DNA from: a virus
IMG/VR virus record: IMGVR_UViG_3300025323_000435
Coordinates: 1 to 40,750 of that record
Length of the DNA: 40,750 nucleotides
Direction: 5' to 3' (one strand)
The number at the start of each line of letters is the position of its first letter. Position 1 is the stretch's first letter. A model generated the notes under the pieces. It searched no databases, was not told where the DNA came from, and was given only the letters and a program-made list of their open reading frames with translations. Below, piece after piece: positions 8,389 through 34,923 of the stretch. The position numbers were made by a program, and so were the translations under genes.

Positions 8389-8592
8389 AGTGAACCTGAT
8401 TTTGTTCACTGGCGCAAAAAACACTAAGCCCTGCGCCAGCTAGGCCTTGCGGCCCTACACCCCTTTCGGGATATAGCCCAATCACGAGTCGCTGAACGCA
8501 GGGTTCAGTATCGTGATTGGGTCTTCCCGACCATGCCACTCTTGCGAATGGTTTAGGTCGCCGCCCTTCCGGGCCGATATTGGTGGTGTAGA
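8389..8592 (-). ncRNA. Structured, pseudoknotted 5' leader of the nuclease gene (copy X)
   Basis: Reading the minus strand: an outer stem 8556-8560/8528-8532 encloses UAAA, a GCAA-capped hairpin and CAU. Next a long stem 8511-8521/8477-8487 holds an inner hairpin (8503-8508/8492-8497). Then come a GAAA-capped stem (8468-8476/8455-8463) and a GCAA-capped stem (8451-8454/8443-8446). The loop 8497-8503 can pair with 8429-8435 as a 7-bp pseudoknot. A last hairpin, 8432-8439 with 8409-8416, uses the same bases and so competes with the pseudoknot. AGTGAAC/GTTCACT (8389-8395/8404-8410) then covers the start site. The same plan occurs at 34664-34892. Confidence 0.65.
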
Positions 8593-8596
8593 GAAC

Positions 8597-8620
8597 ATGA
8601 TAGCACTTTTGGCTATCGTC
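8597..8620 (-). promoter_or_regulatory. Promoter of the nuclease leader RNA
   Basis: On the minus strand an extended -10 box TGCTATCAT occurs (core at 8597-8602), followed by TCTACAC. GACGAT lies 12 nt upstream (8615-8620). The same arrangement precedes the HsdR_N-HsdM leader at 34899-34923. Confidence 0.55.
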
Positions 8621-13182: not shown

Positions 13183-13202
13183 GTTTGTAGAAAAACTTCG
13201 GT

Positions 13203-16200: not shown

Positions 16201-16799
16201 GAAATGGTTTCCGCGATGGTATTTAAGAATCCTTTTGCGAGACCTAAAAATATAGACTCGTTTATAGAGGTGTCAGTTTCTGTTGCCAACCCCAATTTCC
16301 GGAGTCGCTTTAACGTGTCTTGTGCGTTTCCTCGCTTACTCGAATGATGATGTGATATGTCCGCAAAAATGTGAGTTATCTCTGTAATGCGCGCGGCTAA
16401 AAAAGCTGCCTCTGCCTCGTCTAAATACACACGGATTATTTCTTCTACCTTTTTTGACCTTAAGTTCCTGTTTTGAATATATAGTTGCAATATTCGAAAC
16501 ACTGGTAGTGCGCGTATCAAAAAACTACTCCTGGCCCTTCTAGTTGGAGCACCAGAAAACAGATATCCAATCTCTCTAAACGAATGGGCTGATTGGGCAA
16601 TCCAATCAGGATTATGTTTTATGTACGGGTTGCAAAGAAAAGTTGCTCCATCAAGAAAGACGGATGGCTTAACACCGTATATCTTTAAAATCGCATTCAG
16701 TCCGTCTATATAGCCCGCTATTCGTTCTTGGCCTGGTACCAGTTTGATGGGAACAATCTCGTTAACGGGTAACCCGCCACCGCCTAGCTTTTCGCTCAT
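13203..16799 (-). CDS. Giant (1198 aa) helical-repeat protein coupled to Type III Res
   Basis: The ATG (16797-16799) overlaps the Res stop as ATGA, so the two are translationally coupled. The 1198-aa protein has no Walker, DEAD, methyltransferase or nuclease motif that I can see. It consists of successive amphipathic helices with many W, Y and F residues, for example RVAESNPKKVVDFML, VLTLAEAILSVRPKED, RFRLYVWSLCPEVF and EAFWDWVLEHCDD. This pattern suits a HEAT/ARM/TPR-like solenoid. Its size and order (mod-res-this) suggest a scaffold, sensor or inhibitor working with the restriction complex. Large helical C-terminal regions also occur in SIR2-linked defence proteins, but no SIR2 domain is present. 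Confidence 0.65.
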   Translation of the reverse strand: MSEKLGGGGLPVNEIVPIKLVPGQERIAGYIDGLNAILKIYGVKPSVFLDGATFLCNPYIKHNPDWIAQSAHSFREIGYLFSGAPTRRARSSFLIRALPVFRILQLYIQNRNLRSKKVEEIIRVYLDEAEAAFLAARITEITHIFADISHHHSSKRGNAQDTLKRLRKLGLATETDTSINESIFLGLAKGFLNTIAETISAHLTIHRKIDLFCEGLKGGKADRRYLAFLLASTPDAHKYFFAVVPVTNIDWIWKNDFLDVVKERSDDSDQVRYRTPELDYLARVAESNPKKVVDFMLSFDTTANLNLETIDRFLWICTKLPAKELVRVVPTIRDKKWVQTLGGRNHWGFGYKQMFDTLATAKEHETVLTLAEAILSVRPKEDAKRNPFGSVENPFYFSDLHYSEVFGKLSEIGGVYEESVLKLTLKTLADVVLLSGEKEDDVFPIGDMFSLFDVDFFTLSLEHERHLSSRDDVRDLSAVAKIFADKLISKSCNKPDEARRLYNTYVATLPDARTMWRFRLYVWSLCPEVFRDELRTSFFRGLESEKTLWPITSGAEYEHALRKAFGVLSVPERGKYIQRAFELFESLASEHPYGFGILSSIYEFLSEDDRKHAEVLYKQPLKADFYPEPSIVHGYAGTVVPQTPSNTEDEWKKPVSEIVELLKTKWTPEALHKSDTKHDFLRPINAEGVADRLRKDIKERLGDYASNARSFLGRNNLDAHYTYSFLRGIQEAIKADYAQAKNIDWSKIVALGKDIAESGNAKQFDHQMREREQFNAWLAGWTGVHSSLADVLQELLHAEDDSSIVDFDTHRDDIFYIINYLLSFPNPMPADEKHETAGMKEKSVGENGYQVSDPYTIAINSVRGRAFQSFALFIEWDGKKFPKEASSKLSEDVKKAFDELLAREDTGAIMFMFGHYLPFFYFRDKVWIRDRLPRIFTTETDKKHLYLAAWEGYLTRALYAELFEELHREYARAIELDSSSYTKRKYRGELDETLATHLALAYIHFKEFGFESDLYKAFWNVTNSKRHAAFVSFIGRHVISRDRPEEWLKENEEVSIKKIEAFWDWVLEHCDDKEALQGFGFWMQAKYKIFDPVWLADRIDKTLEKTNGNIGWEIGFVDSLSILAKAAPEKTLSALRRHLIDGKILREARGYIRVDSNLIDVLKTLYANPSTKDRTYKLINELLPIGGGQFWGLKEILK

Positions 16800-19492: not shown

Positions 19493-19496
19493 AGAA

Positions 19497-22019
19497 TTAG
19501 AGTTTGCGAATGACGAACGACTCAATGCCTCGGTCATCAATAATCTTCACTGCCACCTTTTTATTCTCGCCCGCTTTGAATGGTAGGGACTCGGCACCCA
19601 CAAAATTATCCATCACGTCCTCATTAACTGCGCCATTGAGAGTTTTTGCAAGGCTCGTCCAGTCTCGCTTCTCGTCCTTGAGAGGAAAGAATACCTGATT
19701 AGGCATGATGCTTTGTTCGTCGTAATCAGTATCGAGCATCCACATTGCGATACGCTTCGTATCACCAGCATCAATTTCTCCTGTAATGGGATTGTAGTAA
19801 TCAAAGCCATTCACTTTTACCTTATACGTTCCGTCTTTATTTTTGATTACCTCAACATCCGGTTGACCGATAAGCCAATAGCTTTGGTTGGACGAGCGAT
19901 TTTTGCGAAGATCGGCGGTAAGCAAATCGACACTCATTTGCGCTTGGAGAATCTTTACTCCTTTCCAGTCTATCTCGCCGATATCTTTTGCGGCCTCCGG
20001 ATCGAAATGGAATGCAGCGAAAATGAGGAGGTCCGGCTTCTCGGCGAGCGAACGTGCCTCATTCACCGCTTCCTCAACATGTCGTTGTTCGAGAGCGCCA
20101 TAGTCCGGACCAAAACTGATAAGTACTTTCTTCTGCTTGCCGTCCTCTAAAATTTCCCCCTCAGCATGCAGAAAGCGCGTGCCAGCCATCGGCTCAATCC
20201 GCGAGAAGTTTATTACCTTTCCACCCGTTGCTCGAATGCCGGCTGTTTTGAGCTCGTCGCGACAGGTCGCTTGATTCGCAGTTTCTTCTGTACGCGCCAA
20301 GTCATCGCCAGTAGTACCAACCTTCTGTCTACTGCCATCAAAGGGTTTGACGCGAAGCCCTGGCACTGCTTCGACGGTGAAGGGTCCCGCTGCTCTCACT
20401 TTATTCTTGTCGATCAGTGGCTGATCATAAAGCGTTTCTTCTTGTAACATCTGGTTACTCGCAAGAGAACCTAACGTAATGCGAGAAGCTTTTTTATAGC
20501 TAAAGCCGCTTGTAATGCCCTCACTTGGATGAGCAAGCTGGAAATAATCAAAATGTGCGGTCATTAACCTTTGTTTTGCGAGGGCGACTGCAACACGAGA
20601 AGTATCACAAGTAATCCACCTTCGCCCGCATTTCTCAGCTACGTATGCAGTAGTCCCAGAACCACAGGTAGGATAAAAAACTAAGTCACCAGGATCTGTG
20701 GCCATCAATATGCATCTTTGTACTATCGATGTTCCTGTTTGAACTACATATATTTTCGGATCGTTTCTACTTTGCACCGCACCTCCAATATCCATCCAAT
20801 TATTTGATATTTGCTGGTATGGAAAATCGGTATAATAACGAACGAAGCGCAGTCGCTTGCCCATAACCGCAAGTCTATTTTGGGCTTGAAGCCTTTCCAT
20901 CCCCGTTGGATAGTTTACTGTCCAGTGACGACCCGTAGCGGGCAAGTAAGTATTTCCCTTATATTCAAATGGGGTTGAGGCACCTGTACTCCCCTGGCTG
21001 TCCAGCGCACCGAGTGAGAAAATTTTTCCCCCTTCAGGAATTGGAACATTCCCTTTTTTCTCGTCCGAAGACAACGCCCTCCTACTTCCATCTGCAAGCT
21101 CCAGCTGGTCATAACGAGAATTTTCGTCATCAAATGGAGAATCCTTTTTTAAATATAATTGTCTATATTTCAATTTATCTATCGATTTTGCATACCAAAT
21201 AACATAGTCTCCAACTCGACTCAAATATTTTGGAGTAAGACCGCTCGTAGAGGCATACGATATAAGACCAACAAAGTTATCACTCCCAAATACTTCGTCC
21301 ATCACGGACTGGACTAGGTGAAGGTTTTGGTCATTGATTTGCAAAAAACATGATCCCGACTCATGTAAAAGTTCACGTGCTAGCAAGAAACGGTTGCGTA
21401 GGTGAGATAAATAGGAATGAATACCTAATTCCCAGGTGTCCCTAAACGCTGTTATCATTTCTGGCTCAGCGGGAATGTCAGCGTCGTTATTATCTTTTAC
21501 CTCCTTCTTATTCACGAAGGGTTGAAAATTTGAATTGTACTTAATACCATATGGCGGATCCATGTAAACCATTTGAACTTCTCCGGCCATACCCTCCTTT
21601 TGGAGAAGGCTATTCATCACCAAAAGCGAGTCGCCTGCAATGAGACGGTTCGTCCAGTCTTGTGTATGGTGGTAGAACTCAAATGCCTTTCCTAAACCAA
21701 GTTTGTTATCGAAAGCATCGAAAAGAGACATCTGTGCATTCTCTTTCTCCTTTAGGAACGACTTGATGATCCGAAGCGGGTCAACGCGCTCGTGGATGTG
21801 CAGTGACAGATTGCGAACGTTTACCTCGTTGCCTTCTCTTTTGCCAGCCCAACTCAAGTACGGGTCTATGTAGGGGTCATGCTCGTATTTTGTAAATCCG
21901 TTGAGTTTGTCAGTCTGGCTAGAAACAAGTCCCACGGGCGGATTGTTCGTGCGTTTTTTACCCTTGTGAGAGTAGGCCTCGATAGAAACCTGTTTATTTG
22001 ATGCTTTCTTTCTGGCCAT
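19497..22019 (-). CDS. mod: Type III methyltransferase/specificity subunit Mod
   Basis: Mod recognises the target and methylates adenine using SAM. I start it at ATG 22017-22019; a TTG four codons earlier sits too close to the AGGA. The 840-aa protein shows the beta-class order: QMVYMDPPYGIKYNS (near residue 153) and DLVFYPTCGSGTTAYVAEKCG (near residue 448). The region between holds the target-recognition part with aromatic-rich loops. The long C-terminal segment after residue 520 exceeds many Mod proteins and likely contacts Res. It heads a five-gene minus-strand operon. The divergent recombinase gene begins 138 bp away. Confidence 0.92.
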   Translation of the reverse strand: MARKKASNKQVSIEAYSHKGKKRTNNPPVGLVSSQTDKLNGFTKYEHDPYIDPYLSWAGKREGNEVNVRNLSLHIHERVDPLRIIKSFLKEKENAQMSLFDAFDNKLGLGKAFEFYHHTQDWTNRLIAGDSLLVMNSLLQKEGMAGEVQMVYMDPPYGIKYNSNFQPFVNKKEVKDNNDADIPAEPEMITAFRDTWELGIHSYLSHLRNRFLLARELLHESGSCFLQINDQNLHLVQSVMDEVFGSDNFVGLISYASTSGLTPKYLSRVGDYVIWYAKSIDKLKYRQLYLKKDSPFDDENSRYDQLELADGSRRALSSDEKKGNVPIPEGGKIFSLGALDSQGSTGASTPFEYKGNTYLPATGRHWTVNYPTGMERLQAQNRLAVMGKRLRFVRYYTDFPYQQISNNWMDIGGAVQSRNDPKIYVVQTGTSIVQRCILMATDPGDLVFYPTCGSGTTAYVAEKCGRRWITCDTSRVAVALAKQRLMTAHFDYFQLAHPSEGITSGFSYKKASRITLGSLASNQMLQEETLYDQPLIDKNKVRAAGPFTVEAVPGLRVKPFDGSRQKVGTTGDDLARTEETANQATCRDELKTAGIRATGGKVINFSRIEPMAGTRFLHAEGEILEDGKQKKVLISFGPDYGALEQRHVEEAVNEARSLAEKPDLLIFAAFHFDPEAAKDIGEIDWKGVKILQAQMSVDLLTADLRKNRSSNQSYWLIGQPDVEVIKNKDGTYKVKVNGFDYYNPITGEIDAGDTKRIAMWMLDTDYDEQSIMPNQVFFPLKDEKRDWTSLAKTLNGAVNEDVMDNFVGAESLPFKAGENKKVAVKIIDDRGIESFVIRKL

Positions 22020-22127
22020 ATAGTTGCTCAAATCCTAACATTTTAAGCCCCTTTTGGAAGCATTTTTATCAACTAGGGGCGTCGGAACAGGTCTGGACTC
22101 ACAGCAGGGGTTGCGTCATTCCTTGTA

Positions 22128-22153
22128 CTTGTAGATTAACAGCTAACTACAAG
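22128..22153. promoter_or_regulatory. Inverted repeat before the serine recombinase start
   Basis: CTTGTAG (22128-22134) and CTACAAG (22147-22153) flank a 12-nt spacer and end four bases before the recombinase ATG. The site lies in the mod/recombinase divergent gap and could be an operator for either gene or a hairpin hiding the start. Confidence 0.4.
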
Positions 22154-22157
22154 CCAT

Positions 22158-23498
22158 ATGATGAACGCAAGGGTTTATGAAGGTACGGAGGGGGCTCTTG
22201 GGCTACGACCCGAGGCCAAAGAGGCGGTTAAGGTGCGCTACTGTTTGTATGCTCGGAAGTCGACCGAGCAGGACGAGGTTCAGGCATTATCAATTGATTC
22301 GCAGATTAAAGAGATGTCCACGCTCGCGGCTCGCGAACGACTCGACGTAGTCACGATAAAACGCGAATCGCACTCAGCTAAAGAGACAGGTCAACGACCG
22401 GTCTTTAACGAGATGTTGCAGGAAATGCGGGCGGGCAAATACAACGGCATATTAACGTGGGCGGCAGACCGCATTTCGCGCAACGCCGGAGACTTAGGCC
22501 AGGTTGTGGATTTGATGGATGCAGGAGTGCTACACGGAATACAAACCTACAGCCAAAAGTTTTCTAACAATCCGAACGAGAAATTCCTGCTGATGATTCT
22601 CTGCTCACAAGCAAAGCTGGAGAATGATAATAAGAGCATCAACGTAAAGCGCGGTTTGCGAACGCGAGCGGAAATGGGACTCCTGCTGGGGTACGCGCCA
22701 ACGGGATACTTGAACGACAAAAGAAGCGACCACAAATGCGAGGTGCTTCTTGACCCGCTTCGTGCGCCGATTGTCAGAATGATATTCGAGAAAGTCGCCA
22801 AGGAGCGGTGGAGTGGGCCACGAGTATATTTCTGGCTCAAGAATGAGATGAATTTCAAGACGAGAAATGATAAGACGCTGAACATAAGTACGCTGTACGA
22901 GATGCTGAAAAATCCATTCTATTGCGGCGTGTATGAATACCCGCGCAAGAGCGGTAACTGGTACGTGGGCAAGCATCAACCGCTTATCTCGCAAGACCTG
23001 TTCCAGTCGGTGCGGACAAAGATTATCGAGGAAAGCAAACCGAGAAAGCGCGACCACGAGTTCACCTTCGTTCGCATGATGGTGTGCGGGAAATGCGGTT
23101 CTGGTATGACCGGCTTCGAGAAGCACAAGCTCGTCAAGGCCGACGGGAGCACGCGATGGTACACCTACTATGGCTGTACCGGGGGCAAGGACAGGAAGTG
23201 CAAAAACCCCTACATCCGCGAAGAGAACGTCATTGCACAACTGTGTGAGATTATGGATGAACTCGATATCAACGAACTGGGAGCGCGGCATCTTATAGAA
23301 AAAGAAATCGGGCGATACAACAAGCTCCGTAGGAACGTGCTCGGATCAAAGGAGAAAGACACAGGGGTGGCGATGGACATCAAGAAATATGCCAAGTACT
23401 TACTGGAAGAAGGAAGCATGGAAGAGAAGCGTGAACTTCTGACGTACCTGCGAGGTAAGCTCGTGATCAACGACAAGAAAATCACGCTGACGCGGTAG
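22158..23498 (+). CDS. Large serine recombinase/integrase 1
   Basis: The 446-aa protein cuts and rejoins DNA at attachment sites through a catalytic serine, S35 in YARKSTEQDE. The resolvase-type catalytic domain continues with SIDSQ, LTWAADRISRN and a domain ending near residue 160. A recombinase domain follows (GYAPTGYLND to NPFYCGVYEYPRKSG). The zinc ribbon is CGKCGSGMTG plus YGCTGGKDRKC. A short coiled C-terminus closes it. Two adjacent ATGs occur at 22158 and 22161. A terminator follows after eight bases. It may have brought in the restriction island on its left, but no matching attachment pair is proven. Confidence 0.9.
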   Translation: MMNARVYEGTEGALGLRPEAKEAVKVRYCLYARKSTEQDEVQALSIDSQIKEMSTLAARERLDVVTIKRESHSAKETGQRPVFNEMLQEMRAGKYNGILTWAADRISRNAGDLGQVVDLMDAGVLHGIQTYSQKFSNNPNEKFLLMILCSQAKLENDNKSINVKRGLRTRAEMGLLLGYAPTGYLNDKRSDHKCEVLLDPLRAPIVRMIFEKVAKERWSGPRVYFWLKNEMNFKTRNDKTLNISTLYEMLKNPFYCGVYEYPRKSGNWYVGKHQPLISQDLFQSVRTKIIEESKPRKRDHEFTFVRMMVCGKCGSGMTGFEKHKLVKADGSTRWYTYYGCTGGKDRKCKNPYIREENVIAQLCEIMDELDINELGARHLIEKEIGRYNKLRRNVLGSKEKDTGVAMDIKKYAKYLLEEGSMEEKRELLTYLRGKLVINDKKITLTR

Positions 23499-23505
23499 GG
23501 TCAGC

Positions 23506-23543
23506 AACGACAAAGCCGCGACTTTCATCGCGGCTTTGTCGTT
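23506..23543. terminator. Terminator after the serine recombinase
   Basis: A perfect 15-bp stem, 23506-23520 with 23529-23543, encloses an 8-nt loop and ends in GTTT. Its left arm begins with A-rich sequence, so it can work in both directions. Confidence 0.8.
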
Positions 23544-23564
23544 TCTTCGGGCTTTGATGCCAGT

Positions 23565-23668
23565 CGGTACCGTACCAACATCTCGGCCTTTCGACGCCTG
23601 ACGGAACGAGTTCCGGACGTCACAACTCTGTTGCGGGGGCAGGATTACCACTGGTGCAATTCTCATAG
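23565..23668. repeat. Dispersed intergenic repeat, copy A
   Basis: It starts with CGGTACCGTACCAA (23565-23578), contains GACGCCTGACGG and ends with TCACAACTCTGTTGC, in the same order as copy B at 29876. An internal hairpin can form between GACGCC and GGACGTC. It begins 22 nt after a terminator, as the other copies do. Confidence 0.65.
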
Positions 23669-23708
23669 CCATCTTCTATCATATTTTGAGCCGTATACTA
23701 GAATACCC

Positions 23709-23760
23709 TTGCTTTTCAGAGATTTATCTCATATAATCTCATATACTCAATGTATGAGAT
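23709..23760 (+). promoter_or_regulatory. Fic promoter with overlapping operator repeats
   Basis: TTGCTT (23709-23714) and TATAAT (23732-23737) are 17 nt apart. The -10 lies within a perfect tandem repeat of ATCTCATATA (23726-23735 and 23736-23745), and an inverted half-copy TATGAGAT follows at 23753-23760. This layout suggests repression by a DNA-binding protein, perhaps the winged helix at the end of the Fic protein. Confidence 0.7.
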
Positions 23761-23769
23761 TGCGAAGTT

Positions 23770-24825
23770 ATGAAGAACCATCTGAACAAACGTCTTAAGA
23801 ATATCCCGGAGCATATCTGGGCACTTATAAACAACATTGACCTCCTGAAAGGACAATGGATCGGCGGCGCGCAGTTGAATCCGCAAGCACTGGGGCGTCT
23901 AAAGCGCTCAACTCTTGTAACTTCCACCGGTGCATCAACGCGCATAGAGGGTGCGAAACTCTCTGATGAAGATGTGGAAAATCTAATGCGCGGACTTTCG
24001 ATGCAGAAATTTGCCGATCGGGACAAACAGGAAGTGAAAGGATACTACGAGCTCTTGGAGAATGTCTTCAATTCGTGGAAGCATATTCCATTTTCTGAAA
24101 GCACTATCAAACACTTTCATCGCGAGCTTCTGAAACATGTGAAGAAAGACGAGTTGCATCGCGGCGAATACAAGAAGAGAGAAAACAAGGTCATGATGAT
24201 TGATGGAACTGGAAAGCCGATTGGGACTTTGTTTGACACGACACCCGCATACCTGACACCGAAAGAAATGCAAGAGCTCATAGAGTGGACGCGCGATGAA
24301 CTATCGCTCGGGAAAATACACCCACTGCTCATCATCGGTAACTTCCTCGTGGAATTTCTCAACATCCACCCGTTCGAAGACGGCAACGGGCGCATATCTC
24401 GCGTGTTGACGAACTTGCTACTTTTGCGCGCGGGATATGCCTACACGCCATACGTATCTCACGAGAAACTGATCGAGGACAATAAAGCGGAGTATTATGT
24501 TGCATTGCGCAAGAGTCAGCGCACATTCGAAGGTGAGAACGGATCGATTGAACCGTGGCTGGATTTCTTCCTTAATGCCCTCCTTTCACAATCGAAGACT
24601 GCGATTGATTTGCTCTCAAAGGAGAACGTGGAACGGCTTCTCTCGCCGAAGCAACTTGCTGTTTGGGAATATTTGCAAAAAGTTGAAGAAGCGACGCCGG
24701 GAACTATCGCACGTACAACGGGTACGGCTCGTCCAACTGTTTCCCAAGCACTCGACGCCTTGATGCGCCTGAAGAAAATAGAACGAATCGGGCAAGGAAG
24801 AACCACTCGATATAGGAAGTTATAA
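23770..24825 (+). CDS. Fic-domain protein with C-terminal winged helix
   Basis: Fic enzymes transfer AMP or related groups to target proteins. The 351-aa protein has the complete active motif HPFEDGNGRISR (near residue 200). The N-terminal inhibitory motif STRIEG (S56 to G61) marks a self-inhibited class in which a glutamate blocks ATP placement. A Fic_N-type segment precedes it (QWIGGAQLNPQALGRLKR). The C-terminal 70 residues form a winged helix (AVWEYLQKVEEATPGTIAR, then RPTVSQALDALMRLKKIERI). This fits autoregulation through the promoter repeats. The next gene starts three bases after its stop, so both form an operon. Confidence 0.9.
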   Translation: MKNHLNKRLKNIPEHIWALINNIDLLKGQWIGGAQLNPQALGRLKRSTLVTSTGASTRIEGAKLSDEDVENLMRGLSMQKFADRDKQEVKGYYELLENVFNSWKHIPFSESTIKHFHRELLKHVKKDELHRGEYKKRENKVMMIDGTGKPIGTLFDTTPAYLTPKEMQELIEWTRDELSLGKIHPLLIIGNFLVEFLNIHPFEDGNGRISRVLTNLLLLRAGYAYTPYVSHEKLIEDNKAEYYVALRKSQRTFEGENGSIEPWLDFFLNALLSQSKTAIDLLSKENVERLLSPKQLAVWEYLQKVEEATPGTIARTTGTARPTVSQALDALMRLKKIERIGQGRTTRYRKL

Positions 24826-24828
24826 GAT

Positions 24829-26985
24829 ATGTTCTCACGAGAAGAGCGTGTCCATATCTTCATGTCGCTTTTCAAGGGTCGTGAAGACGTGTTTGCACGG
24901 CGATGGGAGAAGTGGCAAGGAGGCGTGAGCGGATATGCACCTCTGTATACTGACCAGGATAAAGAATCGTATGTTCCGCTGACAGACAGTTGGATTGAGA
25001 AACATCTAATCGGTTCAGCAACCCTTGGCGTATATCCCCTGCTCCAAGACAACACGTCCAATTTTATAGTCGCAGATTTCGACGGAAACAATTGGCAGAG
25101 CGCTGCCAGAAAATTCCTCGATGTCTGTAAGAAATATGCCCTTCCAGTAGCTACGGAACGCTCGCGCTCCGGCAACGGTGCGCATGTGTGGTGCTTCTTC
25201 GCTGAACCCATTCCGGCAACGAAAAGTCGTCGCATTTTTCTCTCACTGCTACGCGAAGCGGGCTGTATTGATCCGCTGGAAAAGAATGAGGGATTCGACC
25301 GTCTGTTTCCGAATCAGGACTATCTGTCGGGCAAAGGCCTCGGCAACCTTATTGCGCTCCCGCTTCAGGGCGAATCAAGAAGAAGCGGGAACACGGTTTT
25401 TGTCGATTCCGATAATAACTTTGAGGCCATGTCAGACCAGTGGCAGTATTTGCATGTATTGGAACGTGTCACTCCCGAACTACTCGACCGCTTGGTCACT
25501 CTGGGCTCACCGCCATCCGAAGAAGTGCGCAAAATCCAGAAGCGTACTCGTTTTAACAAAACGATGGTTCTTACCCTTGGAAGCGCCGTTTCAATTCCAA
25601 AGAATGTCCTGCCACCAAATCTTGCCTCATACTTACGCGAGGAGCTCAACATCCTCAACATCGGCTATGTCGTTAAGGAACGTGCAGGACTTCCAACCTA
25701 CGGCGAGAAGAAATTCATAAAGACGCTGGAACAAACCGACGAAGTGATTCTTGTACCGCGCGGTTTTCTCAAAAATCTCTATGCGTGGTTGGATGGCCAT
25801 GCAATCAAATATCGGATTATCGACAACCGATTAACGCTCGACTCGGTCGGCCTCAATTCTTCATACACCATGTTGCCCTATCAGGAATCCGCCGTCGCAA
25901 GTTTCGACTCGGCAGAGCAAGGAATTCTGGTTGCTCCGGCCGGAGCTGGGAAAACATTCATGGGACTCGAAATTATTGCGCGCAAACGCCAGCCCGCAAT
26001 CATCCTGACACATCGCAGACAAATATACGACCAATGGCTGGAAAGAATCGAACACGGTTTCGGAATTCCGAAAACCAAAATCGGCCAAATTGGCGGGGTG
26101 AAGAAAGACCCGCACCCGCCGATAACGGTCGCCATGGTGCAAACGCTGGCACGAATGAAAGACGTGAGTGATATTGCTTCGATATTCGGTACGGTACTTA
26201 TCGACGAATGTCATCACATGCCGTCGCGCATGTTCCGTGATGTCGTCTCGAAATTCTCGGCTCGCTATCGCTTCGGACTTACCGCGACACCGTCGCGCAA
26301 ATACAACGACGAAAAATTAATTGGCGTATATCTCGGTGACGTCATACGTACGATCGACAAGGCGGAGATAACGGGCGCTCGTATGCAAGCGTCCGAAGGG
26401 GCTTCAGACAGCGATGCGGTTATTGTACGAGCTACGAATCTTGCGACACCATTCGGTGCCACTTCGCGCGATTTCCAACTCATATCCAAGGTACTTTCGA
26501 GCGATGCGAACAGAAATGCGCTTATTGCCACAGACATCGCGCGGGAAGCACGCGATGGAAAGAAATGTCTTGTGCTCACCGAGCGCAAAGAACATGCGGA
26601 GATGCTCCGCGCGTATCTGCGAAAAGATTTTGAAACGATTATGTTTTCCGGAGATCTGTCGTCGAGACAGCGTGTTTTCGCTCTGCAAAAGATCAAGGGC
26701 GGGAGATTCCGCATCCTGATAGCGACAGGACAAATACTTGGAGAAGGTGCCGATATTGCTGATCTTGATGTGCTTTTTCTCGCATTTCCCGTATCTTTCC
26801 ACGGAAAACTTGCGCAATATGTAGGTCGCATAAAACGAGAGGGTGGGCCGAAGAAAGTCTATGATTATCGAGATACGAACATACCGATTCTCGAGAAACT
26901 CTGGAAGAAACGGGCGACGTATTATCGGAAAAATGGTTTTTCATTTACTGACACGCTTGCAAAATCACAAATGCTATTGCAGTGA
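24829..26985 (+). CDS. AEP primase-like domain fused to SF2 helicase (TOTE-type)
   Basis: The 718-aa protein joins two parts. The N-terminus is an archaeo-eukaryotic primase-like domain of the kind described in TOTE conflict systems: FIVADFDGNNW supplies D83 and D85, SGNGAHVWCFF (114-124) is the nucleotide-binding motif, and FPNQDYLSGKGLGNLIALPL is the third conserved block. The C-terminus is a helicase with APAGAGKT (near 370), IDECHHMPS (near 458), FGLTATPSR and QYVGRIKRE. No nuclease domain is evident at the end. It is cotranscribed with the Fic gene. A role in nucleic-acid-targeting conflict or repair is inferred from family context. Confidence 0.82.
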   Translation: MFSREERVHIFMSLFKGREDVFARRWEKWQGGVSGYAPLYTDQDKESYVPLTDSWIEKHLIGSATLGVYPLLQDNTSNFIVADFDGNNWQSAARKFLDVCKKYALPVATERSRSGNGAHVWCFFAEPIPATKSRRIFLSLLREAGCIDPLEKNEGFDRLFPNQDYLSGKGLGNLIALPLQGESRRSGNTVFVDSDNNFEAMSDQWQYLHVLERVTPELLDRLVTLGSPPSEEVRKIQKRTRFNKTMVLTLGSAVSIPKNVLPPNLASYLREELNILNIGYVVKERAGLPTYGEKKFIKTLEQTDEVILVPRGFLKNLYAWLDGHAIKYRIIDNRLTLDSVGLNSSYTMLPYQESAVASFDSAEQGILVAPAGAGKTFMGLEIIARKRQPAIILTHRRQIYDQWLERIEHGFGIPKTKIGQIGGVKKDPHPPITVAMVQTLARMKDVSDIASIFGTVLIDECHHMPSRMFRDVVSKFSARYRFGLTATPSRKYNDEKLIGVYLGDVIRTIDKAEITGARMQASEGASDSDAVIVRATNLATPFGATSRDFQLISKVLSSDANRNALIATDIAREARDGKKCLVLTERKEHAEMLRAYLRKDFETIMFSGDLSSRQRVFALQKIKGGRFRILIATGQILGEGADIADLDVLFLAFPVSFHGKLAQYVGRIKREGGPKKVYDYRDTNIPILEKLWKKRATYYRKNGFSFTDTLAKSQMLLQ

Positions 26986-26993
26986 GCGAAAAT

Positions 26994-27206
26994 ATGGAGA
27001 TCCTCTATTACTACGACACGAAGAAAGACAAGAAGCGCGATTTTACCAGGTATCAAGTTTCCCGCGATGGCTCATGGTGCATATTTGAGAAGCTTGAATG
27101 CCATAATTTCGGCAAAGAAAATGCCTGCCACGAAATAGACCGGCAGGAATTTAAAACGGAACAAGAGGCACGAACGGTATACGAAAGTTGTCTGCAAGAA
27201 AAATAG
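26994..27206 (+). CDS. Small hypothetical protein after the AEP-helicase
   Basis: The 70-aa product from ATG 26994 (a GTG at 26982 overlapping the helicase stop is an alternative) reads MEILYYYDTKKDKKRDFTRY, then a globular, mixed-charge sequence with two cysteines (SWCIFEKLECHN and ENACHEID) and an acidic C-terminal helix. No family is recognised. It follows the helicase by 8 nt and is probably its operon partner. Confidence 0.55.
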   Translation: MEILYYYDTKKDKKRDFTRYQVSRDGSWCIFEKLECHNFGKENACHEIDRQEFKTEQEARTVYESCLQEK

Positions 27207-27239
27207 CTCATTTCCCCGCATCTCTTTAAGCCAAAAAGA

Positions 27240-27623
27240 TTACTCGTAATATTTGCTTATCTTTTCACTGCTGTTTGCGCGATATACCCCTCGCTCTGTG
27301 TCCTCGTCAGTCTTGTAGGATATCTTGCGGATTATTCCAATTTTCCTCAACCCCACGCGAATTCTTTCTACATCCTGAATATCTTTCCAATCATAGGTAT
27401 ACACGCAGATGACTCCGTTGTTTGAACTTTGGGCACATGAACTATGCTTTGACGCCTTTGCCAAACCGCCTAATTTCCCTTCTTCTGTTGCAATTATAAT
27501 TCTTCTCCAGATTCTGGATAGATTGTGACCGCCCACAAATATCAACCATTTGCCGCCGCGGGAAGTATGCTCGGGATACTTCCCGTCTTTTCTTTGCGCA
27601 TACACCCAATAATCATTAGTCAT
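27240..27623 (-). CDS. BLES03/DUF1917-like protein
   Basis: The 127-aa protein matches the small BLES03-like family: SRGGKWLIFVGGHNLSRIWRR and IIIATEEGKLGGLAKASK are the N-terminal signature (GKWLIF, then AT-x-x-G-x-LG-x-x-AK), and VICVYTYDWKDIQDVERIR with VGLRKIGI is the C-terminal one. The function of the family is not settled; eIF4E-like and phosphothreonine-lyase-like folds have been proposed. It is convergent with the small gene ending at 27206 and divergent from recQ. Confidence 0.7.
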   Translation of the reverse strand: MTNDYWVYAQRKDGKYPEHTSRGGKWLIFVGGHNLSRIWRRIIIATEEGKLGGLAKASKHSSCAQSSNNGVICVYTYDWKDIQDVERIRVGLRKIGIIRKISYKTDEDTERGVYRANSSEKISKYYE

Positions 27624-27693
27624 GCCATCGAGTTTCTCAAAAACATAGGTTCAACGCAACAAGCGTTAATAATTTGTTAGTATTGGGTACTGT

Positions 27694-29583
27694 ATGAAAA
27701 ACACGCTCAAAAAGCATTTTGGGTACGACGGGTTTCGGCCATTGCAAGAGGATATCATCACGCATGTTCTGAGCGGTAGGGATTGCGTGGTGTTGATGCC
27801 GACTGGCGGTGGGAAGTCGTTGTGTTTTCAGCTTCCCGCAATCATGTCGGACGGAGTCGCACTCGCCATCTCCCCGCTTATTTCTCTTATGAAAGATCAA
27901 GTCGATGCGCTTCGAGCCAACGGCATCGCGGCGGACTTCATCAACAGCACCGTACCGCCTAACGAAATAGGTCGTATAATGCGATCCGCGAAAAGCGGAA
28001 AGTTAAAGGTTTTGTACATCGCTCCTGAGCGGTTACCGGTGGCAGGCTTTGAAGATTTTTTACGCACACTTCATATCAGTTTGATAGCCATTGACGAGGC
28101 GCATTGTATTTCGGAGTGGGGACATGACTTCCGACCCGATTATCGCAACCTAAAATCTCTGCGGGAAAAATTTCCCAATGTCCCGATCATCGCACTTACC
28201 GCGACAGCGACAGAAAAAGTGCGTGGGGATATCGTCAGGCAGTTGGGTTTGGACAATCCGCAGGTTTTTATCTCAAGCTTTAACCGCCCTAATCTCTCGT
28301 ATGCCGTAATTCCGAAGAAAGACTCACTACGATCAATTCGTGCCCTGCTCAATAAGAACAGAGGAGAAAGCGCGATCATCTATTGTTTTTCCCGCGGCGA
28401 CACTGAAAAGATTGCGGAGCAGCTCGCGCAGTATGGATTCAAGACGGCTGCATATCATGCGGGACTCACGGCGCAAGCGCGACAAAAAAATCAAGAGCGA
28501 TTTATCCGCGACGAAGTCGACATCATGGTGGCAACGATTGCCTTTGGTATGGGAATCGACAAGCCCGACGTACGGCTCGTCATTCATCACAGTCTCCCCA
28601 GATCCGTCGAAGGATATTATCAGGAAACGGGGCGAGCGGGCCGCGACGGCCTGCCTGCGGAATGTGTCTTGTTATTTTCATACGCCGACAAATTCAAACA
28701 GGACTTTTTTATAAACAAAACCGAAAATGCGACAGAGAAAAGGAAAATGCGTGAGAAGTTGGACGAGGTATTGGGATATGGCAATCTCAGCACGTGCCGT
28801 CGCAGATTTCTACTTCGGTATTTCAACGAAGATTACAACGCTAAGGAATGTGGGAATTGTGACGTATGCCAACCATCGCTTAAGAAAATCTCCATGGACG
28901 GCATGCTCGACGGAATCGGTGCATATTCTCGTCAACAAAACGGAAATTCATGTAAAGGGCAGCCTTCTGAAAACCTTGATTATGACATGACCTTATTTGA
29001 GCATTTACGGACCGTACGAACACAAGAGGCTACATTCCTGAAAGTGCCGCCCTACGTCGTATTTGGCGACAAGACGCTCCGAGAAATGGCGACATATTTT
29101 CCACAAAGTGCTACTGCGCTTTTGCAGATTACCGGGGTGGGAGACAGAAAATGCGTGCAGTTTGGAGAAAGGTTTCTCACTGTTATTCGTTGGTATGCAG
29201 AGCAGAACAATATTAAAGAGAGTCCCAGACAGAGCCGTATTAAAACAAATACAGGTCACGCGCATGCGAAGCCGATATCCACGGGCTCCACTCACGATGA
29301 GACGAAGCAATTACTCCTGCAAAGAATGTCCATCGTTGAGATTGCCAAAAGACGTGGCCTCACTTCCGGCACCATCATTGCCCATATTGAGTCAATCATT
29401 GCTGCCGACCCGCAGACGGACATCGATTATCTTAAACTTCCACAAGATCGTCTAAAAGCGATCACTATCGCATTTGCACAAAGCAAAGGCACGGCCCTCG
29501 CCCCCGCTCGACAAATCCTTGGAGAGAATTACTCGTATGATGAATTGCGCCTAGCACGGATTTTTATACTGACCCATCAGTAG
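27694..29583 (+). CDS. recQ: ATP-dependent DNA helicase RecQ
   Basis: RecQ unwinds DNA 3'-5' in recombination repair. The 629-aa protein has all helicase motifs: MPTGGGKS (35-42), AIDEAHCISEWGHDFRP (near 133), LTATAT, and YYQETGRAGRDG (motif VI). The zinc module follows (CRRRFLLRYFNED then ECGNCDVC). An HRDC-type domain lies at about 430-510 (YDMTLFEHLRTVRTQEA to FGERFLTVI), and the last 100 residues form a helix-turn-helix of the kind seen at RecQ C-termini. The classical RQC winged helix looks reduced or missing. It sits beside defence genes but is a plausible housekeeping gene. Confidence 0.93.
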   Translation: MKNTLKKHFGYDGFRPLQEDIITHVLSGRDCVVLMPTGGGKSLCFQLPAIMSDGVALAISPLISLMKDQVDALRANGIAADFINSTVPPNEIGRIMRSAKSGKLKVLYIAPERLPVAGFEDFLRTLHISLIAIDEAHCISEWGHDFRPDYRNLKSLREKFPNVPIIALTATATEKVRGDIVRQLGLDNPQVFISSFNRPNLSYAVIPKKDSLRSIRALLNKNRGESAIIYCFSRGDTEKIAEQLAQYGFKTAAYHAGLTAQARQKNQERFIRDEVDIMVATIAFGMGIDKPDVRLVIHHSLPRSVEGYYQETGRAGRDGLPAECVLLFSYADKFKQDFFINKTENATEKRKMREKLDEVLGYGNLSTCRRRFLLRYFNEDYNAKECGNCDVCQPSLKKISMDGMLDGIGAYSRQQNGNSCKGQPSENLDYDMTLFEHLRTVRTQEATFLKVPPYVVFGDKTLREMATYFPQSATALLQITGVGDRKCVQFGERFLTVIRWYAEQNNIKESPRQSRIKTNTGHAHAKPISTGSTHDETKQLLLQRMSIVEIAKRRGLTSGTIIAHIESIIAADPQTDIDYLKLPQDRLKAITIAFAQSKGTALAPARQILGENYSYDELRLARIFILTHQ

Positions 29584-29625
29584 CGCATCGGAACGGTCTA
29601 GCCCTTGGCATACCTCCGATACTAA

Positions 29626-29865
29626 ATAATTTGGGCGGACGAAAGAGATACAGGATTCCTTCAGGAACATGTTGCATTCTACAGCAACAGCCCTTTTGAT
29701 TTTATTGGATTTTGCAAAAAAGACGGGCGGCGGTATTGCACCAACTTTTTCGCGATTGCAACACGAATCGCCCATTTTGGAGAGAATCGGACTTACACTG
29801 AATATATGTTGGAAATGCTACATCATCAAAAAACCGCGCATGAATTTGCGCGGTTTTTTGAGTGA
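29626..29865 (+). pseudogene. 5'-truncated gene whose end is encoded by a terminator
   Basis: A frame open from a stop at 29623-29625 to TGA 29863-29865 encodes 79 codons of convincing protein: FLQEHVAFYSNSPFDFIGFC, KKDGRRYCTNFFAIATRIAH and TYTEYMLEMLHHQKTAHEF. No usable start codon lies in the frame before an internal ATG near the end, so the 5' part has been lost. The last residues (KTAHEFARFFE) are specified by the terminator hairpin 29828-29859. The family is not recognised. Confidence 0.45.
29828..29859. terminator. Bidirectional terminator hairpin
   Basis: AAAAAACCGCGC (29828-29839) pairs perfectly with GCGCGGTTTTTT (29848-29859) around an 8-nt loop. The A- and T-runs make it a classical intrinsic terminator in both directions. 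Confidence 0.88.
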
Positions 29866-29875
29866 CCATGGGGAC

Positions 29876-29963
29876 CGGTACCGTACCAATTTTGACGCCT
29901 GACGGTCTACATTTCAGGCATCACAACTCTGTTGCACTGGTAGGACGCGATTTACACCAGATT
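29876..29963. repeat. Dispersed intergenic repeat, copy B
   Basis: CGGTACCGTACCAA (29876-29889), GACGCCTGACGG and TCACAACTCTGTTGC repeat the order of copy A. A hairpin GACGCCTGA with TCAGGC can form. The right end (29934-29963) recurs as copy C at 30439-30468, 26 of 30 bases identical. Confidence 0.65.
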
Positions 29964-30010
29964 ACCGCTTGGTTTTCGGAGATTCAGCGGTTTCATTCCG
30001 CGATACCCGT

Positions 30011-30412
30011 ATGAGCGGCTCAACAAAAACAATGGACGCAGAGGACTTGAAAATTGAGAAGGGCGATATGGATCCGCCCAAGGGCAAATGCCTCTACCCG
30101 AAAGGGGTGCTGATTGCCTTAAATCTGATTTTCAAGAATAAGAAGTTTCCGAGACCGCGAGGGAAAATATCGCCGCAATTCTCGTTTGAGGAGGTACATG
30201 CCCTTGCTGGCTTTCTTTTCTTCAGATCGCCCTACGTTGTACTCAAAGTGTACGAACGCCTGCCAAAGCAAAGAGAGATGCCATTCAAAAGGCGGGTGTT
30301 TATCAATCACTTTCTCGGAGACGCAAAGTTTAACGCAGCTAAGGCGGCGAGAATGGCTGGGTACAGTCCTCGGTCTGCCAAGCAGATAGCGTATAAGATA
30401 AAGCAATCCTAG
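30011..30412 (+). CDS. Short TerS-like protein, possibly truncated
   Basis: From ATG 30011 the frame gives 133 aa. Only the end is diagnostic: FINHFLGDAKFNAAKAARMA followed by GYSPRSAKQIAYKIKQS matches the N-terminal HTH of small terminase subunits (xxYLxDxNAxxAAxxAGYSxxSAxxxG). A full TerS would continue beyond this, so the C-terminus seems to be lost. The preceding 90 residues are unlike usual TerS and may be a fused or separate segment (PSFEEVHALAGF-like helix). Near-identical 30-bp repeats flank the gene. Confidence 0.5.
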   Translation: MSGSTKTMDAEDLKIEKGDMDPPKGKCLYPKGVLIALNLIFKNKKFPRPRGKISPQFSFEEVHALAGFLFFRSPYVVLKVYERLPKQREMPFKRRVFINHFLGDAKFNAAKAARMAGYSPRSAKQIAYKIKQS

Positions 30413-30438
30413 AAATGTTTACTTTTGGTTACTTTTGG

Positions 30439-30468
30439 GCACTTGTAGGACGGGATTGGCACCAGATT
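30439..30468. repeat. Direct repeat copy C
   Basis: The 30 bases beginning GCACTTGTAGGACGGGATT match 29934-29963 at 26 positions and have the same orientation. The two copies flank the short TerS-like gene. Confidence 0.6.
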
Positions 30469-30511
30469 GTCTAATGGTTTGGCAAATGCCAGAGCATGAT
30501 TACGGCCTAGT

Positions 30512-30600
30512 ATGTCTGAAAACCCAACTGAGGAACAGTCGAATAACAGTAAACCGTGGCTTTTCAAGAAAGGTGTATCTGGTAATCCAGGCCAGTTTCA
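30512..30600 (+). pseudogene. 5' fragment of a DUF5681-like gene
   Basis: ATG 30512 begins MSENPTEEQSNN followed by KPWLFKKGVSGNPGQF. The W-x-FKKG-x-SGNP signature is that of DUF5681 proteins, commonly found beside terminases. After about 28 codons the similarity ends where the minus-strand gene 30598-31437 stops, so only the start of the gene remains. Confidence 0.55.
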
Positions 30601-31437
30601 GGGGTTTGATTTTCTGTATTTTTCAGTTTCTATTGCATCGAGTTTGTCGTATTCTTCTTTGGTTATTACTTGCCCATCCTGCATGAAGTCAGCTAGGTGC
30701 ATCCCCGGTGTAAGAGTTACGGTCATTCCACCCTCAGGATTGGGGATTACCTTACAGAGCGCACCGTCAAGTTCAAAGTATGTTGGCTTGTCAAAAGCTC
30801 TCTCCATATCTTCCGATGGCCCTGCCACTGATTTAACGTCTGGCGGAAGCTCGTCGAAATGAACTACCGTGGCATCCCATGAATCTCCGCCAGTGAATGT
30901 ATCTGAAACATTGCGGAATGTTTTCGTTGACCTATCGAACTTCTCAACGAAACCGTACCCATCTTTGTTTGAAGACCTGTATATATCGCCGTCGAGCCTT
31001 AAGTAAGTTGGCTTATCGAATGCTCGCTCAGTTTGTTCCTGTGTTTCCACCTTTAGTTTCTTGAGGAATCCTGTTGGAGTTGCCTTTGGCATGAACACTA
31101 TCTCGGATTCCTCGTTTTCCGATTGCCCTGCTACTGTTTTGACTTCAGGAAATAACTCAGCGTATCGTTCTGGATAATCGGTCTTAAGCTCATTGGATAA
31201 ACCTGCATAGAACTCCTCCCATTCCTGCTCGTCCATTTCGTTCGCACGATTGCCTGTCTTCGTGGAAATGACAAAGCCAGCGCGACGATTGATAGGAATG
31301 CCCAATTCTTTCTCTGCCTTCATACGTTGCACTGACGAGAAAAGGCGGCTTGAGCGAGTGTGCGGTACTAATGGATATTCCTTCTCTACGAACGAGACGG
31401 CGTCTTTTATCTTTTGAATGTAGATCATAGTGTTCAT
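30598..31437 (-). CDS. Hypothetical protein with internal duplication
   Basis: The 279-aa protein is acidic and apparently soluble. Two repeat units are visible: PEVKTVAGQSENEES with ERAFDKPTYLRLDGDIYR, and PDVKSVAGPSEDM with ERAFDKPTYFELDGALCK. Each combines a linker and a small beta-rich module. The N-terminal part (SSRLFSSVQRMKAEKELGIP) is helical. No family is recognised. It follows the small gene at 31451 by 13 nt and is probably cotranscribed. Its stop coincides with the end of the broken DUF5681 gene, marking a recombination junction. Confidence 0.6.
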   Translation of the reverse strand: MNTMIYIQKIKDAVSFVEKEYPLVPHTRSSRLFSSVQRMKAEKELGIPINRRAGFVISTKTGNRANEMDEQEWEEFYAGLSNELKTDYPERYAELFPEVKTVAGQSENEESEIVFMPKATPTGFLKKLKVETQEQTERAFDKPTYLRLDGDIYRSSNKDGYGFVEKFDRSTKTFRNVSDTFTGGDSWDATVVHFDELPPDVKSVAGPSEDMERAFDKPTYFELDGALCKVIPNPEGGMTVTLTPGMHLADFMQDGQVITKEEYDKLDAIETEKYRKSNP

Positions 31438-32154: not shown

Positions 32155-32889
32155 TTAGACGGCGATACCGAGTTCGCCCAACACATAGCCATCAATGGAG
32201 ACGAGGATTTCTTTTATCTCTTGCTCCTTCTTCTTTTGTTGCTCATATTCTTTCGCCAAAATTGCAACAATTTTCTTTTGGACGGCAATAGACGGGATAG
32301 GAAGTGGAATATCTTTTATATCGTCAGGGTAAATATGTGAGGTCTGTCCCCGTTTTTCGCGGTTCAAAAGCAAATATCCGATTTTACTTGAGAGAAAACT
32401 AAAAAGGTACTCGGGAAGTGCTTTTTCCACATCTGCACGAACACAGATAAGTTCGCCTACGAAAACAGTATTCTCGGGGGGTTCCTGATCCAACAGGCTA
32501 ACATTTTTACCCACATATTTGGCCTGATGTGCAGCAGATAGAATAAATATGTCGTTTTTCTGTGCCTTTTTCCCAAGAGAAACGTCCGCCTTAACGTATT
32601 CAATCCGCTCCAGATCAACAAACCGACCCGAAGCGGTCCCCGCTTTAATTATTGGGATAGAACCAATCCCATCATTATCCTCGTCGTAGGATTCCTTTGA
32701 GGGTGTTTTCCCATTTGAAATAAGAACGGTTACGTCCTCAAGCTTAGAGAGTTTATATTTTGATTCTGCAACCTTTTTGACAATATGATCAAAAAAAGGT
32801 TGGTAGTAATCTGCGTCCACTCGATTTTTCCTCTGCACATCTTCATTAGTGATAGAGAAAATCTGTAATTCCCCGAGGTTATTTTTCAT
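32155..32889 (-). CDS. hsdS: HsdS-like specificity subunit with a single target-recognition domain
   Basis: HsdS selects the DNA sequence for a Type I-like complex. Usual proteins have two target-recognition domains and 400-600 aa; this one has 244 aa and one domain (KYKLSKLEDVTVLISNG to IPLPIPSIAVQKKIVAIL) with the conserved helix at the end (AKEYEQQKKKEQEIKEIL). Half-size subunits can dimerise to recognise a symmetric site. The ATG overlaps the HsdM stop by 11 nt, so translation is coupled. Confidence 0.85.
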   Translation of the reverse strand: MKNNLGELQIFSITNEDVQRKNRVDADYYQPFFDHIVKKVAESKYKLSKLEDVTVLISNGKTPSKESYDEDNDGIGSIPIIKAGTASGRFVDLERIEYVKADVSLGKKAQKNDIFILSAAHQAKYVGKNVSLLDQEPPENTVFVGELICVRADVEKALPEYLFSFLSSKIGYLLLNREKRGQTSHIYPDDIKDIPLPIPSIAVQKKIVAILAKEYEQQKKKEQEIKEILVSIDGYVLGELGIAV

Positions 32890-34663
32890 GGTGGAGTGTT
32901 TTATACTCTTTTAATATTTCCGGCAGCTCGTTCTTGTCTTTTCGTCCCGTTGCGTCATATCCCACGTGCTCCGCAATCGCCAGAAAGATTTTATATTTGC
33001 CCAAATCTTCTTCCACACCCTTTCTACGAACGAATACCAGCGACGATTTTACTCCCGCGCCGTAATGCATGAATGTAATTTGGGGCAAGCTTATTACTGC
33101 CAAGATTTGGCAATGTTCCATCAAAAAGTCCCGCACGTATTGGAGCGACGAGTTGGTTAAAATACCGTCTGGAAGGACAATGGCCATTTGACCCGTTTCA
33201 GGTTTTAGAAAATCAATACATCTTTCAATAAAAAGGATTTCGGTCTTCTGGTTATCACGGATTTTCTTACCATTCTTGCCGAAGATAAACTGCTCAAGGA
33301 AGGGGTGCTCACTACGCTTCACATTTGCGCCGAAGGGAGGATTGGTAACGATTACATCAAAATGGCTCTTGAGAAAGCCTCGATTTTTCTCGGTCATTTT
33401 GCTAACATCTTCCAGCGCATCATGGCAAATAACATTTGTATGACCGTCATCGTGGATAATCATATTCATTTTGGCAACGCGGGCGATAGAATCATTTATT
33501 TCTATACCAAATAGATTGTTTTGCGCGAAATCATGCCAATAACGATATCTCTCCGCATTATCGGCTACATAGTATTCCTCCGCCTGTTTACGAATCTCAT
33601 CAAGTGCGTGCAAGAGAAAGCCACCGGAGCCGCAAGCAGGATCAAGTACGAGGTCATCATTTTTGATGCCCAGCATTTTGACGGCAAAACTAACAATTTC
33701 GCGTGGCGTGAAGTATTGCCCGCTTTTACCCTTGAAAAAATCCTCCATGAACTGCTCAAAGGCAACGCCCTTGGTATCGAGGTCTGTTTTGTTGAGGGAT
33801 ATGCTCTGTAAGTGGCCGACAACGGTGTAAAGCTCTTCCGCGCTGATGTCGAGCCGATCCTTGAAAACTTCAGGGTCTTTCTCTTTTGCTTCAAGATAAA
33901 TATCGTTGACACGTTTATAGATGTTCTCGGCCTTTTCGTGCGTCTTTATTTGGAAATCATAGTAGTCGCCGGTTTTGCGGCCGCGCTTTTCATCCCGTAT
34001 TTTGACGAAAATGATTTTGCAAAGCTCATCAAAGGCAACAGTGGGATTGCGCTTCCCTCCAGCCCACAGGGTATTCTGGGCTTTTTCAAGAGTGCGTTTC
34101 AACTCTGATTTCTCTACAGCCTTTAAATCCCAGTCAGCATCGCCTTTCCTATAGCGGTACTCCTCAATCTTGCCGTAGGAAATCGGAATATCGGTGATAG
34201 TGGCATTTTCCGGTTCCTTATCATTCCAATGCTCCGTCTCCATCGCGCGGCGAGTATTGCCAGCGACACAATTGGCAAACGGAGACTTGAGAACACGTGC
34301 ATTGGCTATGGATTGCTTGGTTGCTTGTTCAAACTCAGCATCGCTGATGCCATCTTTCTTGCACTCAATGACTACGTAGGGCTTTTTCTTTGCGTCATCT
34401 TCATAGATAACAATATCGGCATAGCGTTCAGGTGTTCGGTCCGGCATTTCTACCTCAAGCTCAATGCGAACTGCTGGATAGTGGTACTTTTCAATGAGAT
34501 TAGAATAGTACTCGGCACGGACTTTCTCCTCGGGATCGCCTAGGTTTTCTTTGTGGCCAGAAGGGAGATATTCTATTTTTGCGCCGTTGTTATGCAGGCG
34601 GAAATAGCCCTTTCGCACTCCATTTTCCAAAACCTTTTCAAAGGTATTTTCTTGATGATTCAT
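32879..34663 (-). CDS. hsdM: HsdR_N nuclease-HsdM methyltransferase fusion
   Basis: The 594-aa protein has an N-terminal Type I R-type nuclease domain (ERYADIVIYEDD with D83, then YVVIECKKDG with E100 and K102). The methyltransferase half has VLDPACGSGGFLLHALDEIR (near residue 340) and IVTNPPFGANVKR (near 440), the gamma-class order of HsdM. Fusing nuclease and methyltransferase with a separate HsdS, and without an HsdR translocase in the window, resembles Type IIB/IIG-like enzymes. The ATG (34661-34663) has no Shine-Dalgarno; a copy of CCACTGCGACA ends two bases before it, and the gene has a long structured leader. Confidence 0.88.
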   Translation of the reverse strand: MNHQENTFEKVLENGVRKGYFRLHNNGAKIEYLPSGHKENLGDPEEKVRAEYYSNLIEKYHYPAVRIELEVEMPDRTPERYADIVIYEDDAKKKPYVVIECKKDGISDAEFEQATKQSIANARVLKSPFANCVAGNTRRAMETEHWNDKEPENATITDIPISYGKIEEYRYRKGDADWDLKAVEKSELKRTLEKAQNTLWAGGKRNPTVAFDELCKIIFVKIRDEKRGRKTGDYYDFQIKTHEKAENIYKRVNDIYLEAKEKDPEVFKDRLDISAEELYTVVGHLQSISLNKTDLDTKGVAFEQFMEDFFKGKSGQYFTPREIVSFAVKMLGIKNDDLVLDPACGSGGFLLHALDEIRKQAEEYYVADNAERYRYWHDFAQNNLFGIEINDSIARVAKMNMIIHDDGHTNVICHDALEDVSKMTEKNRGFLKSHFDVIVTNPPFGANVKRSEHPFLEQFIFGKNGKKIRDNQKTEILFIERCIDFLKPETGQMAIVLPDGILTNSSLQYVRDFLMEHCQILAVISLPQITFMHYGAGVKSSLVFVRRKGVEEDLGKYKIFLAIAEHVGYDATGRKDKNELPEILKEYKTLHHEK

Positions 34664-34892
34664 TTTGTCGCAGTGGTTTTCCCGCAGTACGAACCCAACA
34701 AACAGAAAAGGGCATCCGCACTGCTCGCGGCCGTTTCCGACCGCACATAGCCCTTTCGGACTATGACCACTGCGACATGTGAGCAGGCAGGTGCCCGTGT
34801 CTATGTCGCAGTGGATTTGTATGCCATGCCTCGCTTTTCAGCAGAAGTTTAGGCGCTTGTAGAAGTTATCCGCTCATATATTTTGATTGTGT
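34664..34892 (-). ncRNA. Structured, pseudoknotted 5' leader of the HsdR_N-HsdM gene (copy Y)
   Basis: Minus-strand order: outer stem 34852-34854/34823-34825 enclosing UAAA, a GAAA-capped hairpin and CAU; a 12-bp stem 34803-34814/34767-34778; a GAAA-capped stem 34758-34765/34746-34753; and a GAAA-capped 7-bp stem 34738-34744/34727-34733. The loop GAGCAG-type site 34781-34786 pairs with 34721-34726 as a pseudoknot. A last stem 34718-34724/34684-34690 overlaps it. A third copy of the 12-bp stem's 5' strand (34666-34676) touches the start codon and can pair with 34767-34778 instead. The plan equals that of 8389-8592. Confidence 0.7.
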
Positions 34893-34898
34893 AGACAC

Positions 34899-34923
34899 AT
34901 GATAGCGCCTTTCTTGCATCGTC
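34899..34923 (-). promoter_or_regulatory. Promoter of the HsdR_N-HsdM leader RNA
   Basis: Minus-strand GCTATCATGT (core TATCAT at 34899-34904) is followed by TCTACAC, and GACGAT lies 13 nt upstream (34918-34923). It matches the promoter at 8597-8620. Confidence 0.55.

Follow-up and report, generated by a model that had tools for sequence, protein, structure and literature searches.

A LOOT RNA leader with a third strand at the start codon: a probable strand-exchange switch linked to restriction-modification genes in Patescibacteria

Introduction

LOOT RNA is believed to have been first described by Weinberg et al. in 2017. The family is typed in Rfam (RF03000) as 'Gene; sRNA', and we found no published function for it in the open literature. 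PMC7657543 cites it to illustrate dense covariation. In the field of restriction-modification (R-M) control, antisense RNAs or hairpins at the starts of restriction endonuclease genes are mentioned, and the passages found in PMC12707154 do not describe a conserved leader RNA.

Here we describe a LOOT RNA in a viral record of IMG/VR (IMGVR_UViG_3300025323_000435) and compare it with its relatives in Patescibacteria, a phylum with little-studied gene control. The whole stretch of 40,750 nucleotides, positions 1 to 40,750 of the record, is hereafter called the window.

Results

Two LOOT RNAs in the window

The leader precedes a gene for a 594-aa protein with the Pfam domains HSDR_N_2 and N6_Mtase (32879-34663, minus strand). 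An HsdS-like gene (Methylase_S in Pfam; 32155-32889, minus strand) overlaps this upstream gene. A first, sequence-only reading of the window did not recognise the leader as a known riboswitch. The Rfam search showed that it belongs to a known RNA family: it contains a LOOT RNA core (34726-34855, minus strand; 68.8 bits in cmscan against a gathering score of 46.4, model positions 1-121 of 121). The conserved CCUAAAC / GCAUGG internal loop and the GAAA hairpins of the family are present in the Rfam alignment, and the folding energy of the leader has a z of -7.3 against shuffles.

A second LOOT RNA (8442-8559, minus strand; cmscan 75.2 bits, model positions 1-121 of 121; folding z of -6.4 against shuffles) lacks the third strand described below; a copy of its arm was sought near its ATG and none was found. 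The gene behind it (7315-8388, minus strand) belongs to a family with a MAIIISKNGKNA-like start that recurs behind LOOT RNAs with and without a third strand (L274, L295, L016, L027, L052, L094, L105, L177 and the window gene). The one domain resemblance of this family is a weak Pfam match to NucS_C, seen for the window member. Both window leaders (8442-8620 and 34726-34905, minus strand) share a stretch, GCTATCATGT..TCTACAC, some tens of nucleotides 5' of CCTAAAC, which looks like a common promoter -10 region (TATCAT). A strict promoter scan of the window yielded no promoter on the leader's strand.

The window also carries terminase genes (5329-7318) and a set of conflict genes (11640-31437), including an N6_N4 methyltransferase with a ResIII/TnsA-like helicase-nuclease, a TOTE primase-helicase, RecQ, Fic and a serine recombinase. 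At 2362-5384 on the plus strand, a ParB-like piece lies with a DDE transposase and a pair of overlapping ORFs, both matching one and the same region of phrog_498 (phage DNA methyltransferase); this arrangement suggests an interrupted, partly duplicated ParB-methyltransferase gene.

Layout of the leader

All elements of the leader lie on the minus strand. P1 (34822-34856) contains the conserved internal loop CCUAAAC / GGCAUGG, as placed by the Rfam alignment and kept in homologues. The 5' arm of P2, CCACTGCGACAT (34803-34814, with AAAT ahead at 34818-34815), is found in the sequence and in the minimum free energy (MFE) fold. The 3' arm, ATGTCGCAGTGG (34767-34778), is the putative switching strand, with either the 5' arm or a third copy as its partner. 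P3 (34746-34765) and P4 (34726-34745) both carry GAAA loops in the Rfam alignment and the MFE fold, which agrees with the GNRA-capped hairpins of the earlier reading.

GGGCA in the loop of P2 (34792-34796) and UGCCC (34710-34714) are the two halves of a loop-strand helix, 5' and 3' respectively, that covaries across LOOT RNAs. A U-rich run conserved among LOOT RNAs, TTTTCTGTTT (34700-34709), lies immediately 3' of this helix. The last hairpin, P5 (34683-34725; GCAGT 34724-34720 with ACTGC 34688-34684), is present in the MFE fold. A pseudoknot proposed earlier between CTGCTC (34786-34781) and GAGCAG (34726-34721) is a second possible pairing of the loop and would compete with GCAGT:ACTGC. It is not supported as a general feature: its exact form was seen only in a near relative, L229.

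The leader ends with AAAA and the third strand (34666-34680). The three strands are base-exact as first read, with CCACTGCGACA at 34814-34804 and 34676-34666 and its complement at 34777-34767; the second copy indeed ends 2 nt before the ATG (34663-34661), and a Shine-Dalgarno (SD) sequence is absent. Elsewhere in the 40.75 kb, CCACTGCGACA has no further exact copy. When one mismatch is allowed, 4 matches are found where 0.44 are expected, a number reached in 0 of 100 shuffles, so the three-strand match is not due to chance.

Distribution of LOOT RNAs

LOOT RNAs were collected by scanning genome contigs with a sequence pattern and by Rfam searches in 380 genomes of the same phylum. They were found in 83 of these genomes, with 1-7 copies each, and in none of 14 control genomes. 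The first batch comprises 192 distinct LOOT RNAs, almost all from Patescibacteria; a class-wide search gave a second batch of 72 after removal of first-batch duplicates. The pattern scan required the conserved core, the regex parser missed some loci, and start codons were assigned by a mechanical rule. Relatives may be shared between the two batches, and the counts below ignore kinship (no tree correction). Matches outside Patescibacteria either lack a P2 stem or lie in single suspect bins; pattern matches in Beggiatoa, Clostridia, Vreelandella, Caulobacter and Zipacnadia bins were rejected as chance after a first parse that showed no P2 stem in them.

An ORF was called 3' of the RNA in 189 of 192 loci, usually about 75-105 nt past P2. 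A -10-like box is present 5' of 106 of 189 LOOT RNAs, compared with 24 of 185 control stretches, and this excess indicates that LOOT RNA probably has a promoter of its own, from which it is transcribed as a leader. The possibility of an upstream ORF starting from the conserved GGCAUGG was discarded, as its distance to a stop was the same as in other frames.

A third strand at the start codon

The P2 5' arm of each locus was sought 3' of its own RNA, and the expectation was obtained from arms swapped among the loci. Copies of at least 9 nt lie 30-110 nt past P2 in 37 of 192 loci of the first batch (0.54 expected) and in 14 of 72 loci of the second (0.14 expected). Among the 192 LOOT RNAs, neither more distant downstream stretches nor the upstream side showed a comparable excess, and copies of the 3' arm gave none either. 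The third strand mostly ends at -3 to +6 nt relative to the start codon, and it is preceded by an A-tract like that ahead of P2 (88-100% A at positions -4 to -2). In two loci (L113, L207) the copy is inside or beside alternative starts.

Covariation in the extended leader was judged by the arm-exchange tests. Over nine positions of outer P2, both helices are paired in 43-45 of 45 non-redundant leaders, which were picked for a match, with few expected by chance; positions 3-7 show all four Watson-Crick pair types. The arm sequences vary by locus, and the three strands change in concert. Free sequence with kept strand identity argues for base-pair exchange and not for a sequence-specific protein or a trans target. 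The mutually exclusive pairing at the start codon, first proposed for the window leader, is borne out: it recurs, with unrelated arms and three-strand covariation, in dozens of LOOT RNAs. The third strand appears to be new relative to known LOOT RNA.

The two competing helices are nearly equal in strength. Mean duplex energies are -18.6 kcal/mol for P2 and -18.5 kcal/mol for the third-strand helix; whole-leader folds in the window give -89.7 kcal/mol for the P2 state and -84.3 kcal/mol for the third-strand state. A strong SD is scarce behind the third strand: 0 of 38 genes against 35 of 152 others in the first batch (p=2.6e-4), and 2 of 51 against 38 of 210 in both batches (p=0.009).

About 80% of LOOT RNAs have no third strand; the strand is therefore an addition and not the core function. 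Where no copy exists, complementarity of the start region to the core showed no clear excess.

Four loci (L022, L049, L093 and L097) have a near-identical arm and loop and the same third strand, CCCGCTAGAG, with different genes behind: a PDDEXK_4-like nuclease, two related proteins without a Pfam match, and a secreted-like protein. It is as if this leader moved as a module.

Genes behind LOOT RNAs

DNA methyltransferases are encoded behind 15 of 46 LOOT RNAs with a third strand and behind 1 of 197 without it (p=2e-11); the enrichment is seen in the first (p=3e-8) and the second batch (p=7e-4). These methyltransferases are mostly of type III, and several are followed by a probable Res gene, called by sequence resemblance only. 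Among other genes of the same loci, a few percent match R-M models. A search that started from the genes gave about 21 type III Mod homologues; 3 of them lie behind a LOOT RNA, and each of these three leaders has a third strand. As most of these homologues have none, the leader is an optional module. The HSDR_N-N6_Mtase architecture of the window recurs in L306, with a LOOT RNA carrying three different strands ahead. The earlier proposal that a new RNA switch controls the nuclease-methyltransferase gene is partly supported, in that R-M genes are strongly over-represented behind the third-strand variant and strand exclusivity recurs; the RNA itself is not novel.

The remaining genes behind LOOT RNAs encode small membrane proteins, zinc-ribbon proteins, SNase, and NucS-like or Shedu-like nucleases. 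No common metabolic theme was found in either batch. LOOT RNA as a plain marker of defence genes was rejected: neighbouring genes in the same loci also match PADLOC models, and we therefore restrict our claim to the methyltransferase link of the third-strand class. In L156, a LOOT RNA with a near-perfect third strand is followed by a short frame (MPNKLQLQL...) that resembles a type III Mod start and soon stops, possibly a decayed methyltransferase gene.

Discussion

Proposed mechanism

Sequence comparison establishes that the leader belongs to the LOOT family, that three strands co-vary and are placed at the start codon, that SD sequences are scarce there, that the competing helices have near-equal energies, and that the arrangement is linked to DNA methyltransferase/restriction genes. 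We consider it probable that the LOOT leader is a cis-acting strand-exchange switch on the gene behind it, with P2 as the switching helix. The RNA probably hides or frees the start by a strand swap. With the 3' arm of P2 on its own 5' arm, the A-rich strand and the start codon would be single-stranded and translatable without an SD. With the 3' arm on the third strand, an about equally strong helix would close a junction over P3, P4 and P5 and end at the start codon, so that initiation would be blocked and the gene presumably repressed. The P2-formed state could be the default, because P2 is transcribed first. P2 would form long before the third strand is made, and the exchange therefore faces a kinetic barrier. 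We speculate that the LOOT core, namely the internal loop of P1, the A-tract and the loop-strand helix, may act as the sensor. The leader stands directly 5' of a co-oriented gene, as expected for a riboswitch, and mutually exclusive structures over an expression signal are found, by comparison alone, in about 20% of LOOT RNAs.

Alternative explanations

The main action could be on transcription termination, with the loop-strand helix and U-run as terminator, P5 as antiterminator, and the third strand only tuning the stability of P2 in the read-through RNA. Loop-strand Watson-Crick runs of at least 6 occur in 70 of 260 LOOT RNAs (9.8 expected), with a duplex energy of -12.4 kcal/mol compared with -7.3 kcal/mol for swapped partners. 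The U-run (at least 7 T in 9 nt) is conserved in 168 of 260 LOOT RNAs against 31 when shuffled, and P5 pairing has moderate support across the family (57 against 20 expected). The helix and the U-run occur both with and without the third strand, and the sRNA typing in Rfam also counts in favour of this reading. The helix abuts the U-run, yet it is pseudoknotted; many U-runs are interrupted (UUUGUGUUU), and a terminator scan found no classical terminator in the window leader. Termination as the main action also leaves the fixation of the third strand at the start codon and the scarcity of SD sequences unexplained, and we regard it as rather unlikely. A termination layer at the loop-strand helix and U-run of all LOOT RNAs is nevertheless plausible beside the proposed strand exchange.

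A trans-acting sRNA, whose P2 3' arm would target mRNA starts with the cis copy as one target among others, would agree with the Rfam typing and with a possible terminator at the end of LOOT RNA. Four genomes sharing one arm were searched, and the arm followed by ATG was confined to its own LOOT locus, with no targets elsewhere in these genomes, which argues for action in cis. Moreover, every locus has its own arm and a matching third strand, and a trans role seems improbable. The direct repeats of 10-16 bp, about 140 bp apart, that flank P2-P5 could permit deletion of the element at the DNA level (phase variation), a very remote prospect given that one copy is fixed in place as an arm of a hairpin and the other at the start codon, and that the full RNA is kept at loci without the repeat.

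Comparison with known regulatory systems

Both window leaders match the full Rfam LOOT model above the gathering score. The model ends at P4, whereas the loop-strand partner, U-run, P5 and start-codon strand fall outside it, and the entry is typed as sRNA and not as leader. With a cis-acting switch, this orphan RNA family gains a testable function, the moving strand being readable from sequence alone. The three strands vary freely yet together, and hence mutants favouring either state can be tested at any locus.

Like translational riboswitches with strand-exchange platforms, the LOOT leader has a sensor-helix strand with two partners, one of them over the translation start. In contrast to those riboswitches, its competing strand copies an arm of an internal hairpin (P2) and not of the closing stem. 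LOOT RNAs with the third strand also differ in that an SD that could be hidden is usually absent, the sequence of the strand varies freely, and no ligand is known.

On a tentative and somewhat doubtful broader view, LOOT RNA could serve Patescibacteria and their mobile elements as a general sensor gating R-M and other accessory or defence genes; the start-codon lock would be an addition for the most dangerous genes, possibly opened by infection or DNA entry. No riboswitch is mentioned in the reviews PMC3874152 and PMC12707154 on R-M control; among the literature found, the LOOT leader would be the first structured and conserved leader RNA with a link to R-M operons. It would resemble C proteins, methyltransferase repressors and antisense RNAs in limiting or timing potentially harmful R-M genes.
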